Source: an uncultured Bacteroidales bacterium (GTDB taxonomy: Bacteria > Bacteroidota > Bacteroidia > Bacteroidales > F082). Taken from it: DNA of 64,000 bases. Below, one piece after another: positions 49,133 through 56,765 of this stretch (position 1 is its first letter; each line of letters begins with the position of its first letter). The notes beneath the pieces are model-generated. The model was not told the DNA's origin and did not search any database. It saw nothing but the letters and a program-made list of their open reading frames with translations. The stretch lies in assembly GCA_900317155.1 (NCBI GenBank), contig ONFO01000010.1:1-64000 (forward strand), given 5' to 3'. Made by a program: the position numbers and the translations under genes.

Positions 49133-50368
49133 ATGTTGGAAAACAAATACAAAGAATCCGTCCTTCCGAACGGAATTCGGCTGATACATAAGGAAAAACA
49201 AGGCGAAATTGCCCATCTTGTGCTGATGGTGGAGACTGGCACTCGCGATGAACTGGCCTACGAGAACGGCCTCGCTCATTTTGTGGAGCACACCATCTTC
49301 AAAGGCACACAAAACCGTAAGGCGTATCATATCCTAAGCTGCCTCGACAATGTGGGCGGCGACCTCAACGCCTTCACCACCAAGGAGGAGACCTGCTTGC
49401 AGGCCACCTTCCTCAAGCAGCACTACAAGCGCAGCCTCGACCTCTTCGCCGACATCGCCTTCCGTTCCACCTTCCCAGAAAACGAGCTGGCCAAGGAGAA
49501 GGAAGTCATCTTGGACGAGATCAACTCCTATTTGGATTCTCCATCGGACGAGATTTACGATTTGTTTGAAGAGATGGTCTTCAAAGGGCATCCTTTGTCG
49601 CGCAACATATTGGGCACCACAGAATTGGTGAAAGGCTTCCATCGCGAGGACATCCTCGACTTCATGGCGCACAACTACAGCACCGACCAAATGATTTTGG
49701 CCTCTATTGGCGACATCAGCTTCAAGGAGTTTGAGCGGATGGCCATGACGTATTTCGGAAACCAACCGGCACACATTATTAATAAGAAACGCGAAATCTT
49801 CAAAGGCTACACACCTGAAAGCCGCATTGACAAGCGTAACAACCACTTGAGCCACTGCATCATAGGTAATATTGCACCCGAGTTCAGCAGTTCCATGCGC
49901 ATGCCCATCGTCATGCTCAACAACGTGCTCGGCGGTCCAGCCATGAGCTCCCGCCTCGGCTTGAACATCCGTGAGAAATACGGCTTCGCCTACAGCATCG
50001 AGTCGCAATACACCGCTTATTCCGACGTCGGTCTCATTAATGTCTACATGGGCGTCGACCCCGACTCACTGGAACGTGCAATAGAGTTGGTCCACAAGGA
50101 ACTGGACAAGCTCTGCACCCAGAAACTGGGCACTTTGCAACTGCATCACGCCAAGCAGCAACTCATCGGACAAGTGGCATTGAGCTACGAAAGCGGCATG
50201 AATGAACTACTTAGCGTCACCCGTTCACTCATCATGGGTGAGCCCATAGAATACATGGACGACATCATTCAAAAGGTGGAGGCCGTGACGGCTGAAGACA
50301 TTCTTGAAGTGGCCAACCGCGTATTCGACGAGAAGCAGCTGAGTCAAATTATCTTTGAAGGGAATTGA
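49133..50368 (+). CDS. M16 family zinc protease
   Basis: This 411-residue protein is of the mitochondrial processing peptidase-like/PqqL branch of M16. The inverted zinc motif HFVEH (His49, Glu52, His53) is followed 76 residues later by the third ligand Glu129 in LDEINSY, exactly the family spacing. The C-terminal inactive half has NNVLGGPAMSSRLGLNIREKYGFAYSIES. No signal peptide is visible, so it is probably cytoplasmic. Such enzymes degrade peptides; the target is unknown. It is transcribed divergently from the secreted S8 protease, but a shared role is not implied. Confidence 0.93.
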   Translation: MLENKYKESVLPNGIRLIHKEKQGEIAHLVLMVETGTRDELAYENGLAHFVEHTIFKGTQNRKAYHILSCLDNVGGDLNAFTTKEETCLQATFLKQHYKRSLDLFADIAFRSTFPENELAKEKEVILDEINSYLDSPSDEIYDLFEEMVFKGHPLSRNILGTTELVKGFHREDILDFMAHNYSTDQMILASIGDISFKEFERMAMTYFGNQPAHIINKKREIFKGYTPESRIDKRNNHLSHCIIGNIAPEFSSSMRMPIVMLNNVLGGPAMSSRLGLNIREKYGFAYSIESQYTAYSDVGLINVYMGVDPDSLERAIELVHKELDKLCTQKLGTLQLHHAKQQLIGQVALSYESGMNELLSVTRSLIMGEPIEYMDDIIQKVEAVTAEDILEVANRVFDEKQLSQIIFEGN

Positions 50369-50395
50369 ATGATTTTTCTCAGGGGATAAAATCTT

Positions 50396-50695
50396 ATTAA
50401 AGCAGAATATTTCATTTTAAAAAGGAATTTTTTGGCTTAAACTATAATTCTTTCAAAAAAAACAGCATTTTTTCTCAGCTGTCACACAGCGGGTTATCCC
50501 TTGTGACGAAAAATAGTTGAAAAAATAGCTTGACAAAAATTTCTAAGGTTGTACATTTGCAACATAAAACAACCGTAATACTACTTTAAGCGGAATATTT
50601 TTGATTAAATAGTTTAAACAACATGCGGCTTAGGCCAACAAATTGACAACATGAAACACAATTAACGGAATCATTCACCCTCAAAAACTAAAGCT
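50396..50695 (+). promoter_or_regulatory. Regulatory module copy 1 (paired sites, promoter, leader)
   Basis: The module has a site pair ATTAAAGCAGAA (50396) and TTTAAAAAGGAA (50416), 20 bp apart. The promoter has TTG at 50530-50532, a 19-bp spacer and -7 box TACATTTG (50552-50559), nested in a GTTG...CAAC inverted repeat. A second pair lies at 50584 (CTTTAAGCGGAA) and 50604. The leader then holds two tiny frames, at 50623-50646 (MRLRPTN) and 50651-50665 (MKHN). From about 50502 onward it is nearly identical to 53839-54034. It drives the 508-residue protein gene. Confidence 0.75.
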
Positions 50696-52222
50696 ATGAG
50701 AAAAAAAACTCTACTCCTTTTGGTGCTTTGCAGCTATTACATGGCATCAATGGCTCAGCAGCCACCTCTCTCACGCTGCAATGCCAACAACATCAACGCA
50801 ACTATCATAGGCGATGGCTCTTGCTATGCGAAACTTGCCCTTATCAACCCCGACAACTGCCCTACATGGGAAGTGCCCGCTGGCAGCGGCAAAGAGACTG
50901 TTTTCCAGCATGCACTGTGGTTTGGCGGTCTCGATGCTGACGATAATCTCCACTTGTCTGCTTTCAGGTATGGCCAAGTCGGCCAGGACTACTGGTCAGG
51001 ACCACTCACAACAACCGATGCCACCATCGACATGATGACCCTGATGAAGTATTATCATGTATGGAATCTGACCCGTGAAGAAATCAACTTTTTCATTGTT
51101 CACCACGGCGAAGCGGGTTATGAGATCCCCGATGACATCCTGACTTGGCCCGCCCACGGTGAGGGCGACTACGCAGCCAACCTCGCGCCTTTTGTCGATG
51201 TGGACGGAGACGGACATTACAACCCTGAAGCAGGCGATTATCCCGACATCAAAGGTGACCAGTGTCTGTACTTCATTTTCAATGACAGTTATAGGGACCA
51301 TACCGAATCAGGAGGTAGCAAAATCGGGCTCGAAGTACACGCCATGGTATACGCCTATAGCGATCCCAAAGACGAGGCCCTTCATAACACGGTGTTTTTC
51401 AACTACCAATTCTTCAACCGCTCAGCAGATGACTATCACGACGTGTATCTGGGACTTTGGTCAGACTTTGACATCGGATATGGCTGGGATGATTACATCG
51501 GCTGCGACGTACAACGGAGCTCCTACTTTGGCTATAACGGTACCCCCATCGATGGCAGCGGTGAGCCCGAGGCCTACGGCGATAACCCACCCGTGCAGGT
51601 GCTGACCATTTTGGCAGGTCCTTACATGGAAGCTGATGGGCGCGACAACCCAGAGTTCAACGGAGATTGCGATGCTCTCTTCAACGAAACGTACCCTGCC
51701 GACAAATACGCCTACAACGGCTTCAACTTCGGAAACGGCATTGTTGACGACGAACGTTTAGGCATGACGGGGTTCATGTATCACAACAATGTTGTAGGCA
51801 CAAATGGTGACCCCAGTGAACCTGAAGACTATTACAACTATCTGCGCGGCAACTGGAAAAACGGCAACCACATGAAGTATGGAGGCAATGGCTTTGAAGG
51901 CCAAAATGTGGTAGGCCCAGAATGCAACTTCATGTTCCCAGGCGACAGCGACCCTTGTAACTTCGGCACCAGCGGCATCGCACCAAATGAAGACTACAAC
52001 ACCGGCGACAAATTTTGGACAGAGGTTGAATGCCAGAACGCACCCAACGACCGTAGAGGTCTTGGCATGGTTGGTCCTTTCAACTTCAACGCTGGCAGCA
52101 CACAGGTGGTTGACTATGCCTTGACCACAGTGTGGAAAAACGACGACCATTCTGCCATGGAGCGCATGGATGCCATCATCGACCACATCAAGGACACGTT
52201 CAAAAACGGTTTTTCAAAATAA
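50696..52222 (+). CDS. Secreted protein, T9SS-cargo-like, without sorting domain
   Basis: This 508-residue protein has a signal peptide ending MASMAQ (residue 21). Its body matches a domain common in long Bacteroidota secreted proteins (TVFQHALWFGGLDADDNLHLSAFRYGQVGQDYWSGPLTT...). It contains a calcium-loop-like DVDGDGHYNPEAGDYP and many aromatic/acidic turns (SDFDIGYGWDDYIGCD). It ends at KDTFKNGFSK without a T9SS C-terminal domain, so if surface-exposed it may depend on a partner. The GLUG-motif T9SS protein follows 36 bp downstream and is the likely partner. Function is unknown. Expression is probably under the repeated module upstream. Confidence 0.75.
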   Translation: MRKKTLLLLVLCSYYMASMAQQPPLSRCNANNINATIIGDGSCYAKLALINPDNCPTWEVPAGSGKETVFQHALWFGGLDADDNLHLSAFRYGQVGQDYWSGPLTTTDATIDMMTLMKYYHVWNLTREEINFFIVHHGEAGYEIPDDILTWPAHGEGDYAANLAPFVDVDGDGHYNPEAGDYPDIKGDQCLYFIFNDSYRDHTESGGSKIGLEVHAMVYAYSDPKDEALHNTVFFNYQFFNRSADDYHDVYLGLWSDFDIGYGWDDYIGCDVQRSSYFGYNGTPIDGSGEPEAYGDNPPVQVLTILAGPYMEADGRDNPEFNGDCDALFNETYPADKYAYNGFNFGNGIVDDERLGMTGFMYHNNVVGTNGDPSEPEDYYNYLRGNWKNGNHMKYGGNGFEGQNVVGPECNFMFPGDSDPCNFGTSGIAPNEDYNTGDKFWTEVECQNAPNDRRGLGMVGPFNFNAGSTQVVDYALTTVWKNDDHSAMERMDAIIDHIKDTFKNGFSK

Positions 52223-52258
52223 CACAATCAATCATATAACACTTTAATACTGAATGCT

Positions 52259-53608
52259 ATGAAAAAGATATACCTCATTGTCATGCTCCTCATGACAGGC
52301 ATGATGGCCGAAGCCCAAACCAGCGTTTGGAATGGCAGCCGCAGACTTTGGACAAGCGGCGAAGGCACTGAGAGCAATCCCTACCTGATTGAATCGGCAG
52401 AACAGCTTGCCTTTCTTTCCTACATGGTCAACAAAGGACTCGTCACAACTGATTTGAACTTCAAGCTGACTACTGACATCGACTTGAATGGCAGTGAAGA
52501 TCTGCCTTGGGTTCCCATCGGATTAGGCGACCGCTGGTTCAGCGAAGACGGTTGCGAGCGACTCATCGACCCATCCTACACCCCAGTCTATTTTTGCGGG
52601 CATTTCGACGGAAACGGGCACAGCATTTACAACCTTTATGTTGATGGAGGCACCTATGTCGGACTGTTCGGACTAGTATCAGGACAAGGTTCTTTGATCG
52701 AGAACCTCAACATCGAAAACGGTTATGTCAACGGCACCTATAGTGGAGGCATTATCGGACAATGCACGGGCGCTGTAGATATATTAAACTGTCTGAACAG
52801 TGCAGAGATTGTAGGCACAGAAGCTGCTGGAGGCATTGTCGGGCAAGGAGGAAACGTCATCCGCAACTGTAGCAACTCCGGCCATATCGTCAGTTCAAGC
52901 TATGCTGGTGGTATCGCAGGTTCACTGGCCAAAGAGCTTTACGAGTGCTTCAACACGGGCGGTATCAACGTCAATGGCTCCGCCGCAGGAGGCATCTTAG
53001 GCAGAAGAGGCGGAGAAAAGCTTATCATCGTCAACTGTTACAACCGAGGTGATCTGTCGGGCAATGCGACCCATGGCATCGGCGGTATTGCTGGCATCGC
53101 CAACGGTAACACGACAGACATCCGCAACTGTTATAATGTGGGTAGCATCACCAACGACAGTGGCAACGCAGGCGGATTGTTCGGCTATGATAATGTAAAC
53201 AACATCAACAATGTCTATTACCTCAACAATTGCGGTGGCTGGGGACCTGGGGAGGACAAAACTGCCGAAGAAATGCGCGACCCCGCTTTTGTCGACTTAC
53301 TGAATCTCAACACCAATGTCTGGGGCTACGACGAATACAACATCAACGACGGGTATCCCATCCTGACAAGCACCCTTATGTCGACCGAAGAGACTGTCGT
53401 CAACACGATGAGCGTCTATCCCAACCCCGCCAAGAGTAGTTTCACAGTGGAAGGCACGGGCCTGCTGAGCATCATCAATGTCCTTGGACAGACAGTCATG
53501 GAAAAGCCGATTGAAGAGATGTCAATTATCACGCTCTCCGAAGGAATCTACCTCTTGAGACTGACCGACGGTAGCGCTTCCACTACAAGAAAAGTGGTTG
53601 TATATTAA
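52259..53608 (+). CDS. T9SS-sorted GLUG-motif protein
   Basis: This 449-residue secreted protein has a signal peptide ending MAEAQ (residue 20). After an N-terminal region (TESNPYLIESAEQLAFLSYMVNKG, typical of GLUG proteins) it has repeated beta-helix-like GLUG units: GIIGQCTGAVDILNC, GIVGQGGNVIRNC, GIAGSLAKELYEC, GILGRRGGEKLIIVNC and GIAGIANGNTTDIRNC. Each pairs a G-x-x-G turn with a C-x-N-x-G turn. The T9SS domain is VYPNPAKSSFTVEG ... GIYLLRLTDG ... RKVVVY. GLUG proteins are often adhesins; that is the likeliest role. It forms an operon with the 508-residue gene and ends at the terminator 53663-53695. Confidence 0.85.
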   Translation: MKKIYLIVMLLMTGMMAEAQTSVWNGSRRLWTSGEGTESNPYLIESAEQLAFLSYMVNKGLVTTDLNFKLTTDIDLNGSEDLPWVPIGLGDRWFSEDGCERLIDPSYTPVYFCGHFDGNGHSIYNLYVDGGTYVGLFGLVSGQGSLIENLNIENGYVNGTYSGGIIGQCTGAVDILNCLNSAEIVGTEAAGGIVGQGGNVIRNCSNSGHIVSSSYAGGIAGSLAKELYECFNTGGINVNGSAAGGILGRRGGEKLIIVNCYNRGDLSGNATHGIGGIAGIANGNTTDIRNCYNVGSITNDSGNAGGLFGYDNVNNINNVYYLNNCGGWGPGEDKTAEEMRDPAFVDLLNLNTNVWGYDEYNINDGYPILTSTLMSTEETVVNTMSVYPNPAKSSFTVEGTGLLSIINVLGQTVMEKPIEEMSIITLSEGIYLLRLTDGSASTTRKVVVY

Positions 53609-53662
53609 AACACGAAGAATAAGTACTTTTTTTCCATTATGATTTAGGTTTAGTTGATTTGG

Positions 53663-53695
53663 TAGAGACGGTGCTTGCGCTGTCTCTATTTCTTT
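53663..53695 (+). terminator. Terminator of the GLUG gene
   Basis: Stem TAGAGACGGTGC / GCGCTGTCTCTA (two G-U pairs) is followed by a T-rich run. The sequence from about 53636 onward is repeated at 55508 onward. Confidence 0.8.
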
Positions 53696-53731
53696 GGATT
53701 ACCTTGATAATGATTGCTTGCAATAAAATTC

Positions 53732-54034
53732 GATTAAAGCGGAATAATATTGATTAAAACGGAAATATTACAAATAAAACAATTAATTTTGGAAAACAAG
53801 CGATTTTTTTCTGCTTGACATACAATGAATTATCAAAGGTGACGAAAAATAGTTGAAAAAATAGCTTGACAAAAATTTCTAATGTTGTACATTTGCAACA
53901 TAAAACAACCGTAATACTACTTTAAGCGGAAAATTTTGAATTAAAAAGTCTAAACAACATGTGGCTTAGGCCAACAAATTGACAACATGAAACACAATTA
54001 ACGGAATCATTCATCTTCAAAAAACACTAAAACT
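53732..54034 (+). promoter_or_regulatory. Regulatory module copy 2
   Basis: A perfect site pair GATTAAAGCGGAA (53732) and GATTAAAACGGAA (53752) is spaced 20 bp. The promoter has TTG at 53866-53868, a 19-bp spacer and TACATTTG at 53888-53895 in a TGTTG...CAACA inverted repeat. A second pair lies at 53920 (CTTTAAGCGGAA) and 53940 (ATTAAAAAGTCT). Tiny leader frames lie at 53959-53982 (MWLRPTN) and 53987-54001 (MKHN). The gap 53609-54034 holds only this module and the terminator. It drives the gene at 54035. Confidence 0.78.
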
Positions 54035-55495
54035 ATGAAAACCAAACTCTACACCCTCCTCACTGGCCTGCTGATGGCCGCCTGCATCACGAGTTACGGA
54101 CAGGAAATCGTCAGCGAGTTTTCGCCCAATAACATTAGTATCTATTCCAACATCGTGGAAACCTCAGACAATCATTTGCTCGTCGGGAGTTGCACCAATT
54201 TGTATAATCGCGAATACGTGGTTTACAAGACGACGCCAGAAGGCTCTTTTATGGACAGCGTGGTTTTCTACAACGAGTACCAACTGCTTGAAATCCCCTC
54301 GGTGACCGACACTTTCCTTCTCGTGGGCTTTTCCATCGACAACCCTGGCAACATCTACAGCCTCAAGCTCACTTGCATTGACGATGACTTGAACACAATC
54401 AACGAGGCTTCAATTCCCATCGGAGAGCATTTGTATCGCTTTTGGGACTACAATGTCTTCATTACCCCTAACTTGGAAATCGTTTTCCCATACAGCATTG
54501 GAAACGGCGACAAGTTTCACATCATGCGACTTGGGCTCGATCTCAATGTAATCGAAGACAAGACCATCCCCGAAATTGCTCGTGGCACATGGAACAACAA
54601 CTATACCAGCGACTCTGTCATGTTCTATACCGACATCAGCATCAGCAGCGAAACACCCTTGAAATACCATTGCCTTGGCTATTACAAAGATGCGACTGGC
54701 AATGTGGTTTTCGTCAATCACGTCCTCGACAGCGACTTCAATTGGATAGAAAGCACCGTGCTGAGTCCCTACGACGAAAGTTCCTCCTTTACTGAGGATG
54801 TTCTCACGGCCTATACACCCATCAATTCGGCACAATCCAACGAAAGATTCAATCTTATGACCACCTATCTGACCTCACCTAACTACAGCTCTTCTGCCAT
54901 CATCAAGTATAACGACAAGAACGACCCTGTGGCGATGCTCACTTTCATGGGAGGACATCTCTCACTGGGTTTAGGCCAGCTTGTTGCCAAAGACTACAAC
55001 ACGATCTATTTCACACACGGATGCTTCGGCTCGCACACAGCTTCACACCTCGTCAGATTGAATGGCGACCTCGACATCGCTTGGGAATTGCCCTTGCCTT
55101 GCCAAACTGGGACAGTAGCCGTATTGAATTGCCTGAAAGTGTTGGAAAACAACGACATCTTAGTTGGAGCCATTTTGTATTACCAAAACTTAGACCCTAA
55201 ACTCAAGATATACATCATCCGCGACGACGACCCGACCACCATCCAAGAAACGGCGACCTTCGAGAAACCCTTCACCCTCTGCCCCAACCCCGTGAAAGAT
55301 CTGCTAACCCTCCGCTTCGACGACGGTGACGAGCCCGAGAGCGTTGAACTGTATGACCTTGCAGGCCGTTTGGTCGGCACCAAGCCAAACGGTCTGGAAA
55401 GCATCGACATGAACGCGATGTCCTCCGGGGTGTACATGCTGCGCCTCACGATGAAAGACGGGACGATCTACCACGAAAAAGTATTGAAAGAATAG
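54035..55495 (+). CDS. T9SS-sorted secreted protein, probable beta-propeller
   Basis: This 486-residue secreted protein has an N-terminal signal (MKTKLYTLLTGLLMAAC...SYGQ). A Cys lies in a lipobox-like position but without the usual Leu at -3, so I favour signal peptidase I cleavage after SYGQ. The body has repeated strand pairs such as IVETSDNHLLVGSCTNLYNREYVVYKT and LLVGFSIDNPGNIYSLKLTCID, as in seven-blade-like propellers. No catalytic motif was seen. The T9SS domain is LCPNPVKDLLTLRFDDG ... GVYMLRLTMKDG ... HEKVLKE. It is controlled by module copy 2 and flanked on both sides by duplicated terminator-promoter sequence. Confidence 0.85.
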   Translation: MKTKLYTLLTGLLMAACITSYGQEIVSEFSPNNISIYSNIVETSDNHLLVGSCTNLYNREYVVYKTTPEGSFMDSVVFYNEYQLLEIPSVTDTFLLVGFSIDNPGNIYSLKLTCIDDDLNTINEASIPIGEHLYRFWDYNVFITPNLEIVFPYSIGNGDKFHIMRLGLDLNVIEDKTIPEIARGTWNNNYTSDSVMFYTDISISSETPLKYHCLGYYKDATGNVVFVNHVLDSDFNWIESTVLSPYDESSSFTEDVLTAYTPINSAQSNERFNLMTTYLTSPNYSSSAIIKYNDKNDPVAMLTFMGGHLSLGLGQLVAKDYNTIYFTHGCFGSHTASHLVRLNGDLDIAWELPLPCQTGTVAVLNCLKVLENNDILVGAILYYQNLDPKLKIYIIRDDDPTTIQETATFEKPFTLCPNPVKDLLTLRFDDGDEPESVELYDLAGRLVGTKPNGLESIDMNAMSSGVYMLRLTMKDGTIYHEKVLKE

Positions 55496-55537
55496 AATAA
55501 GGTTTTTTCCATTATGATTTAGGTTTAGTTGATTTGG

Positions 55538-55569
55538 TAGAGACAGTGCATGCACCGTCTCTATTTTTT
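55538..55569 (+). terminator. Terminator of the 486-residue T9SS gene
   Basis: Stem TAGAGACAGTGCA / TGCACCGTCTCTA (one G-U pair) is followed by TTTTTT. It is a duplicate of the terminator at 53663. Confidence 0.85.
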
Positions 55570-55606
55570 AGAATCATCTTGATAATGATGGTTTGCAATA
55601 AAATTC

Positions 55607-55890
55607 GATTAAAGCGGAATTTTATTGATTAAAGCGGAAATATTACAAATAAAACAATTAGTTTTGGAAAACAAGCGATTTTTTTCAGCTTGACATACAA
55701 TGAATTATCAAAGGTGACGAAAAATAGTTGAAAAAATAGCTTGACAAAATTTTATCATGTTGTATATTTGCAGCATAAAACAACAAAAACATGAATTAAA
55801 ACGGAATAATTTAGATTAAAATTCAAAACAACTCGGGGTTAGGCCAACAAAATAACAACATGAAACATATTTACAGTAAGTGCTTTTTTT
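55607..55890 (+). promoter_or_regulatory. Regulatory module copy 3, without a downstream gene
   Basis: A perfect site pair GATTAAAGCGGAA at 55607 and 55627 is spaced 20 bp. The promoter has TTG at 55741-55743, a 19-bp spacer and TATATTTG at 55763-55770. A second pair lies at 55795 (ATTAAAACGGAA) and 55815. No gene follows; leader sequence joins directly to sequence resembling the 3' flanks at 53612 and 55500. Most of the gap 55496-56061 is accounted for by this module, two terminators and the CACGAAT-type repeat at 55970-56055. Confidence 0.72.
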
Positions 55891-55946
55891 CATAATGATT
55901 TGGTTTTAGTTGATTAAAGCGGAGACATAACAATCTCCGCTTTTTT
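55777..55946 (+). ncRNA. Candidate ORF-less transcript from the third module
   Basis: Predicted from an intact promoter (55741-55770) and a good terminator about 150 bp later. The transcript would be about 170 nt, containing the leader segment GGTTAGGCCAACAAA shared with copies 1 and 2. Its only frame from an ATG is an 11-residue MKHIYSKCFFS. It could be a small RNA, or merely what remains after the module's gene was deleted. Confidence 0.35.
55916..55946 (+). terminator. Terminator of the orphan module
   Basis: AAAGCGGAGA / TCTCCGCTTT stem with an eight-base loop is followed by TTTTTT. The left arm is itself a GATTAAAGCGGA word, like the module's binding sites. Confidence 0.85.
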
Positions 55947-55969
55947 CTCTTACATGAATGGCCTTATTT

Positions 55970-56055
55970 TTCTATTTTTACACGAATGACCATAAATTGC
56001 TCACGAATTTTTCATTAATGACAATTCGTGATTCATTGATAGGAATTCGTGTTGG
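55970..56055. repeat. CACGAAT/ATTCGTG interspersed repeat, copy 1
   Basis: Several direct and inverted CACGAAT words lie here, including CACGAATTTTTCATTAAT (56002-56019), which recurs exactly at 58919-58936. It lies between the orphan module and the 3' end of purE. Confidence 0.6.
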
Positions 56056-56061
56056 AAAAAA

Positions 56062-56568
56062 TCAATTTGTCTTGAAGTTATACTTCACCTCTTTCAGTTC
56101 AGCGTTGGCCTTGGTAATCTTGTTCTTCAGGTTTTCCTTGTAATTCGCGACTTTGGCGGCAACTTGTGCATCGCCTAAAGCCAGCATCTCGGCAGCGAGG
56201 ATGGCGGCATTGAGGGCACCATTCACGCCCACCGTAGCCACGGGAATGCCAGGAGGCATCTGGATGATGGACAGCATGGCGTCGAGGCCATCGAGCATAC
56301 CCTTGACAGGCACACCGATGACGGGTAATGTCGTGTTGGCGGCAATCACGCCAGGCAAGGCGGCGGCCATGCCAGCAGCGGCGATGATTACTTTAATGCC
56401 GCGACCTTGTGCTTCGCGGGCAAATTGTTCCACTTCTTGAGGTGTGCGGTGCGCGCTGAGGGCGTTCATCTCGAACGGGATTTCCATCTCGTCGAAGAAC
56501 TGCGCGGCTTTTTCGAGAACGGGAAGATCGGAAGTGCTTCCCATGATAATGCTTACTATTGGAGTCAT
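56062..56568 (-). CDS. purE: 5-(carboxyamino)imidazole ribonucleotide mutase
   Basis: This 168-residue class I PurE converts N5-CAIR to CAIR in purine synthesis. Signature segments are IIMGSTSDLPVLEKA (residues 7-21), NALSAHRTPQEVEQFA with the conserved SAHRTP, IIAAAGMAAALPGVIAA, LPVIGVPVKG and IPVATVGVNGALNAAILAAEML. The C-terminus carries a short Lys-rich extension (NKITKANAELKEVK). The leader contains a minus-strand copy of the composite palindrome plus CAAC tract. purK is not nearby. hpt and adk lie just beyond, divergently, so the purine genes cluster. Confidence 0.96.
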   Translation of the reverse strand: MTPIVSIIMGSTSDLPVLEKAAQFFDEMEIPFEMNALSAHRTPQEVEQFAREAQGRGIKVIIAAAGMAAALPGVIAANTTLPVIGVPVKGMLDGLDAMLSIIQMPPGIPVATVGVNGALNAAILAAEMLALGDAQVAAKVANYKENLKNKITKANAELKEVKYNFKTN

Positions 56569-56717: not shown

Positions 56718-56757
56718 GTTTTTTTCCCAATGCGGTTGACCCAATAGAAGCATTTTG

Positions 56758-56765
56758 TATATTTG
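56758..56765 (+). promoter_or_regulatory. hpt promoter
   Basis: TATATTTG matches TAnnTTTG, with TTG at 56736-56738 and a 19-bp spacer. Confidence 0.65.

Follow-up and report, generated by a model that had tools for sequence, protein, structure and literature searches.

Repeat arrays on both sides of an rRNA-type promoter at a variable surface-protein locus of uncultured Bacteroidales

A stretch of 64,000 nucleotides from an uncultured Bacteroidales bacterium (contig ONFO01000010.1 of assembly GCA_900317155.1, positions 1 to 64,000; here called the window) carries three promoter modules, each a promoter with short repeats of one kind both upstream and downstream of it. What are these repeats for? 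An earlier interpretation made from the letters of the window (the sequence-only reading) had proposed that they form pairs with an exact 20-base-pair (bp) period, bound by a regulator perhaps of the LytTR class, which would loop the DNA around the promoter and control a set of proteins of the type IX secretion system (T9SS). Because related genomes show this arrangement again, at the one locus, we regard the arrays as probably real control sites for a putative DNA-binding protein.

All three promoters and their repeat words were found where that reading had placed them. The repeat unit has the consensus TTAAARCGGAA. In each copy the upstream array consists of two units and a half unit (about 19–20 bp beyond unit 2) with a period of 20 bp, and lies about 165 bp upstream, at roughly -165 to -120 relative to the inferred start. 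The downstream array, at roughly +20 to +45, is one unit, 33 bp past the -7 box, followed by a half unit. The parts of the modules are as follows:

50396 to 50441, forward strand: upstream array of copy 1 (units 50397–50407 and 50417–50427, half unit near 50436), conserved in the 27-copy alignment
50466 to 50559, forward strand: promoter of copy 1, stable-RNA type (T-tract, GAAAAATAGTTGAAAAA, TTGACAAA at 50530, TACATTTG at 50552)
50585 to 50609, forward strand: downstream array of copy 1 (unit 50585–50595, half unit 50604)
53733 to 53779, forward strand: upstream array of copy 2 (units 53734–53744 and 53754–53764, half unit near 53774)
53802 to 53895, forward strand: promoter of copy 2, stable-RNA type (TTGACAAA at 53866, TACATTTG at 53888)
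53921 to 53946, forward strand: downstream array of copy 2 (unit 53921–53931, half unit 53941)
55608 to 55654, forward strand: upstream array of copy 3 (units 55609–55619 and 55629–55639, half unit near 55649)
55677 to 55770, forward strand: promoter of copy 3, stable-RNA type (TTGACAAA at 55741, TATATTTG at 55763)
55796 to 55821, forward strand: downstream array of copy 3 (unit 55796–55806, half unit 55816)

The exact 20-bp pairing proposed earlier holds for the upstream arrays of all three copies; downstream it does not, as the second member is only a half unit, and the sites at 50604, 53940 and 55815 have little beyond ATTAAA in common with the word. Upstream, the site at 50416 is 2 positions off the word. 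From the first upstream to the first downstream unit we measure 188, 187 and 187 bp in copies 1, 2 and 3, in agreement with the 187–188 bp reported before, in copies that share descent. Allowing at most one mismatch, ATTAAANCGGAA occurs 7 times in the window, whereas 100 shuffled versions average 1.42 and reach 6 at most; six of the window matches are array sites and the other (55913) falls in the terminator hairpin behind copy 3.

The window by itself nevertheless proves little, since the copies are duplicated cassettes (83–90% identical). Copies 2 and 3 share 300 nucleotides at 90% identity and copies 1 and 2 share 221 at 89%; over the whole module the other two copies are 88% and 83% identical to copy 2, and a genome search with copy 2 as query returns these three places only. 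As the three copies are related stretches, their shared spacing reflects common descent rather than three independent observations. Their identity, taken with the arrangement in relatives, suggests that the triplication arose by duplication of whole cassettes within the locus.

The relatives are more informative. We searched 173 genomes of the family, the organism's own included, with the module, scoring the best 4 candidates per genome, and obtained matches in at least 34, the strong ones in the same genus. The setting in these relatives is fixed: a gene for an M16 peptidase, then zero or more cassettes of module plus gene, then purE on the opposite strand. Across 99 genomes of the genus the M16 gene is found in 97 (E 1e-100) and purE in 92 (E 1e-50). 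A sequence-only profile built from 27 modules, with at least 112 bits taken as a full-length match, finds full-length modules in 23 of the 99, each at this slot beside M16 or purE; in G100, G104 and G126 the contig ends before one edge gene and the other is present. At the other extreme are G047, G071, G108, G109 and G132, where the whole insert is absent, as only 2 bp lie between the last codons of M16 and purE.

Proteins related to the one encoded behind copy 2 (486 residues) have matches in 34 of the 99 genomes (E 1e-20). The upstream stretches of eight family members that lack a module, including two outside the slot in empty-slot genomes (G071, G109) and two in the slot (G120, G140), were scanned with the module profile, and the best match was a 36-bp promoter piece in G120 (E 0.013). 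Judged by these searches, the arrays track the slot module and neither the gene family nor T9SS.

Counts of spacing take in 28 modules. Left out of them are partial modules of L078 (at 8304/8192, with no promoter core) and L081 (at 6336, where just the downstream part is present), and L063 and L064 were dropped as repeats of L084 and L068. An L078 module that contains a stretch of N was excluded from the alignment, which leaves 27 rows, and under the stricter pattern used in counting the unit period L114 and L115 have no -7 box. The two upstream units stand 20 bp apart in 22 modules and 19–21 bp apart in all 28, that is, as direct repeats about two helical turns apart. From the first upstream unit to the -33 box the distance is 130–135 bp (27/28), from -33 to -7 it is 22 bp in 22 modules and 23 bp in 6, and from -7 to the downstream unit it is 33 bp in 25. 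The whole span between first upstream and downstream unit is 185–190 bp in 27 of the 28; the exception, L083 at 208 bp, seems from the alignment to hold one extra 20-bp unit at the far end. Given this constancy, the length of the spacer is held within 6 bp, not exactly, though its sequence is nearly randomised.

The sites are also conserved. With one module per genome from 23 genomes, the 33 columns of the three full units carry 1.36 bits of information each, compared to 0.57 at the 99 other non-promoter columns (Mann-Whitney p 1e-10, which is indicative since columns share ancestry); by unit the values are 1.52 downstream and 1.43 and 1.12 upstream. Mean pairwise identity over 19 genomes is 80% at the sites, 45% in the spacer adjoining the upstream array and 64% at third codon positions of M16. 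Related sites are thus conserved on both sides of the promoter, as in operator-flanked promoters. Decay of the pairs beside a conserved promoter, which the sequence-only reading had named as telling against regulation, is not what we see: in 23 genomes the sites are kept alongside the promoter, and much better than the sequence around them, and a regulatory role is not refuted on this ground.

What kind of promoter lies between the arrays? The weaker matches of the profile outside the slot, among the matches listed, mostly cover only this part, and we fetched 20 chosen among them, with Rfam run on 6 of the 20. Behind 13 lies the leader word GAGGCCAGCAC of ribosomal RNA (rRNA), and one of these (L224) reaches the start of 16S rRNA at its contig end. 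A fourteenth match, L221, precedes the transfer RNA (tRNA) gene tRNA-Asp. Of the other six, four (L213, L225, L226, L227) end 25–45 bp behind the match, L223 shows a boxA-like word only, and L230 precedes what by eye is an apparent protein gene. The organism's own genome has only two further matches at E <=0.01 among the matches listed, L211 and L212 (E 1.1e-11 and 2.5e-7); both are contig-end promoters with the rRNA leader word, and their label rests on this shared leader because the 16S gene would lie beyond the contig end. The array word (at most one mismatch) was not found near either of them.

When 25 modules and the 20 fetched promoters are aligned without gaps on the -7 box, they have in common, in the same register, a T-tract, TGA.A..CA, GAAAAATA.TTGAAAAAA, CTTG and GTA..TTTGCA. 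This resemblance shows the core of the module (about -95 to +1), which lies between the arrays, to be a promoter of the kind that the genus uses for rRNA and tRNA. The genus promoters differ from the module in what follows, an rRNA leader or a tRNA, and the pair in the own genome lacks the 20-bp arrays. The rRNA-type promoters of the genus (L211, L212, L224 and others) display an extended upstream architecture over some 95 bp, made up of the same T-tract, TGA.A..CA and GAAAAATA.TTGAAAAAA blocks. The -7 and -33 boxes of the module are like those of Bacteroidetes primary-sigma promoters, for which TAnnTTTG at -7 and TTTG near -33 are described (PMC7366714); the T-tract, the GAAAAATARTTGAAAA block and the arrays go beyond the consensus given there. 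Elsewhere in the window, at 56736–56765, a promoter-like TTGACC-TATATTTG stands before a phosphoribosyltransferase gene, without arrays.

Does the putative array-binding protein serve other genes, as a regulator of a T9SS gene set would? At least 150 T9SS-tail stretches are present in the genome (out of 225 candidates, 150 were scored), and a loose form of the array pair has 10 matches there, 8 in the modules and 2 outside compared to 7 in the reversed control, which speaks against such a set. Nor did the proposed genome-wide search for the word find pairs outside the slot to be commoner than in reversed controls. The word (at most one mismatch) occurs 76 times in the genome and 98 times in the control, no excess; the strict paired word finds two modules only (control 0), and of its 21 matches over the 99 genomes 14 fall in the slot and 7 elsewhere, compared to 14 in the control. 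One match outside the slot, L089, before a gene that by eye is of outer-membrane efflux type, was rejected as within chance.

The LytTR assignment fares no better. LytTR sites follow the 9-bp word [TA][AC][CA]GTTN[AG][TG], which has 0 matches in the 6 array stretches and 55 in the whole window, where 59.9 are expected. As direct repeats alone are insufficient for the label and the word is absent from the arrays, the label is not supported. A LytTR word does turn up, single and unpaired, in the copy 1 leader at 50661 and in the copy 2 leader at 53997; at both places (50661–50669, 53997–54005) stands ATTAACGGAA, a near-unit that on the opposite strand is also the LytTR-like word. A paper on AgrA and LytTR yields the direct-repeat arrangement only (PMC4227749), and PorX sites, as given in PMC8265659, show by eye no likeness to the unit. 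Among the papers listed on T9SS regulation, LytTR, TAnnTTTG, repression loops and rRNA promoters we found none on this arrangement, which is not proof of its being unpublished.

The genes and other features of the slot in the window are:

49133 to 50368, forward strand: M16 peptidase, left edge of the slot
50696 to 52222, forward strand: 508-residue protein behind copy 1, with no Pfam or NCBIfam match, of secreted type by eye
52259 to 53608, forward strand: 449-residue protein with a T9SS C-terminal sorting domain, second gene behind copy 1
53620 to 53690, forward strand: conserved cassette 3' element and hairpin terminator
54035 to 55495, forward strand: 486-residue protein with a T9SS C-terminal sorting domain, behind copy 2
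55498 to 55565, forward strand: cassette 3' element and hairpin behind the 486-residue gene
55876 to 55951, forward strand: 3' element and hairpin terminator immediately after copy 3, no protein gene intervening
56062 to 56568, reverse strand: purE, right edge of the slot

In a PHROGs search the 449-residue protein had a single weak match, whose function is unknown, and the 508- and 486-residue proteins had none. Among 18 slot proteins of the 486-residue family identity averages 73% over the first 30 residues and 71% over the last 66, compared to 33–38% over residues 31–400. By these figures the family is a constant frame around a variable middle, with the caveat that secretion also constrains signal peptides and sorting domains. 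The 3' element, GTAAGTGCTTTTTTTCATAATGATTTGGTTTTAGTTGATTTG and variants followed by a hairpin, is common behind slot genes (30 matches, one of them weak and elsewhere in the window). In three places (L114 1542–1610, L115 462–530, L066 9645–9710) the element and a strong hairpin, without a T run, follow a module or a gene and precede another gene; with no promoter seen behind them by eye, these are possibly points of read-through or attenuation.

Copy 3 drives no gene: from 55876 it runs into the 3' element and hairpin terminator, beyond which lies the convergent purE. It is one of several such units. Classed by reading, the 28 modules comprise 19 with a gene (that of L076, cut by the contig end, only begun), 2 with an apparent gene remnant (G061, G096) and 7 without a gene, where 54–154 bp and no protein gene separate the -7 box from the 3' element. 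Besides window copy 3 the geneless units are two in G129 and one each in G134, G123, G114 and G106; in G114 and G106 a gene comes after the hairpin, and after the first G129 unit comes a gene that has a different promoter. Geneless modules have arrays no less intact than modules with genes do, the three units matching at a mean of 10.4, 10.3 and 10.4 of 11 positions compared to 10.2, 9.7 and 10.7. The geneless copies, the rRNA-type core and the single-slot distribution are all new with respect to the sequence-only reading.

The contents of the slot vary widely. The junction of M16 and purE (window 50369–56061; L111–L150) holds 2 bp, other small genes or T9SS cassettes. The small genes lie between short direct repeats, and several encode an apparent four-helix 23S intervening-sequence protein. 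In the slot of G080 a CotH-kinase-domain gene lies beside purE (L068 636–2237). Genes for IS200-like Y1 transposases lie in the slot upstream of the module at L070 4979–5440, L073 4063–4524 and L077 4768–5229. At L078 8142–8304 a module with both ends and no promoter core is nonetheless found upstream of an open family gene.

How might such a module work? Our preferred explanation, which we hold tentatively and at somewhat less than an even chance, is that the slot expresses surface proteins from a promoter of the stable-RNA class and that a putative locus-specific protein binds both arrays, most simply as a repressor bridging them. The module would then be the control region of the slot. As the unit is the same on both sides, one protein would occupy both arrays and hold the promoter down by bridging them around the RNA polymerase site, until a signal released it and freed the promoter. 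Repression is suggested by a core that alone resembles the stable-RNA promoters of the genus and by one array lying behind the start, and bridging by two arrays that flank the polymerase site at a held distance.

Several observations weigh against this explanation. The loop proposed earlier is compatible with the 185–190 bp between the arrays (27/28), but the 6-bp spread exceeds half a helical turn and is too wide to show strict phasing. It is unusual for a regulator to have a single target locus in a genome, and a degenerate wider regulon could escape pattern searches. That the core is strong is suggested by resemblance only. Unit 2 is weak (6–8 of 11) in L066, L071, L077, L079, L081 and L082, unit 1 is weak in two modules (7 of 11 in L082, 8 in L078 at 6514), and G120 and G140 hold a family gene in the slot without any module.

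Activation without a loop would use much of the same evidence differently. Fis activates rRNA promoters of enteric bacteria, and here too the upstream array could bind an activator that boosts the rRNA-type promoter, the downstream unit merely tuning promoter escape: the array sits just beyond the rRNA-type region, and core and T-tract are conserved together. However, the unit downstream, in the same orientation and with its half unit, is at least as conserved (1.52 versus 1.43 and 1.12 bits) and is nearly fixed at 33 bp from the -7 box (25/28), where an activator is not expected; we consider activation unlikely, if worth keeping in view. More doubtful still is that the downstream unit and 3' element act in RNA, with the geneless modules making a small regulatory RNA from their stable-RNA-type promoter. 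Seven of 28 modules are geneless with intact arrays, and one fold reaches z -2.9, much of it owed to the terminator; yet consensus folding of the seven units gave no shared pair, neither the window nor five loci from relatives had an Rfam match reaching the gathering score, and the upstream array is not transcribed from its promoter. Weak matches of Rfam type (miRNA, L20-leader) fell below gathering score and were dismissed, and an attC-like (integron) reading of the leader and a boxA-like reading of the downstream unit were considered by eye and set aside.

We give equally little credence to the arrays being arm-type sites of a recombinase, with the module a site of cassette exchange or duplication and any promoter role secondary. 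The slot is indeed highly variable, empty in five genomes and differently filled in others, its cassettes stand in tandem, and paired direct repeats flanking a core resemble phage attachment sites. But the most conserved core is a promoter, in the five empty slots there is no space for a remnant, and a Pfam scan of 18 proteins from the window and relatives, part of the slot's open reading frames, found no tyrosine- or serine-type recombinase, while IS200-like transposases lie near three modules. That the modules are conserved only through recent common descent or transfer from genome to genome, and have no function, seems to us very unlikely. The identity of modules tracks that of M16 only moderately (Spearman 0.40, 19 genomes), which makes some exchange likely; the spacer adjoining the sites, however, has diverged to 45% while the sites stand at 80%, and this contrast within the module disfavours an explanation by ancestry alone.

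A more elaborate form of the bridging-repressor explanation is speculative, and we think it rather improbable as a whole. The locus would be a dedicated surface-antigen slot with a constant frame: in front, an rRNA-type promoter that has been captured and bears operator arrays, then an unvarying leader and signal-peptide end; behind, an unvarying sorting-domain end and 3' element. Within this frame the middles of secreted proteins would be exchanged or lost. Empty frames would persist as promoter-terminator units, making a short RNA or titrating the array-binding protein.

Repressors with several operators around one promoter are familiar from lac and gal, and in lac, gal and ara the operator pairs flank the promoter or lie far from it, at roughly 100–200 bp. 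The module is like these in having sites on both promoter sides at such distances, and unlike them in its unit sequence and its tandem, half-ended arrays. The closest working comparison that we found, by analogy, is the nadA promoter of Neisseria meningitidis, where NadR operators lie at the promoter and far upstream and the authors propose looping (PMC2791445). Both concern a surface-protein gene with operators of one regulator, some far upstream, the regulator here being putative; the module differs from nadA as described there in its sites, direct repeats of 20-bp period that flank the promoter, and in its rRNA-like core.

If the bridging-repressor explanation is true, an uncultured lineage, presumably of the rumen, expresses a variable outer-surface protein from a promoter of the rRNA class under a private regulator. 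The binding word of that regulator would now be known, and would serve as concrete bait for finding it. One chromosomal site would then link variation of the surface to a class of very strong promoters.

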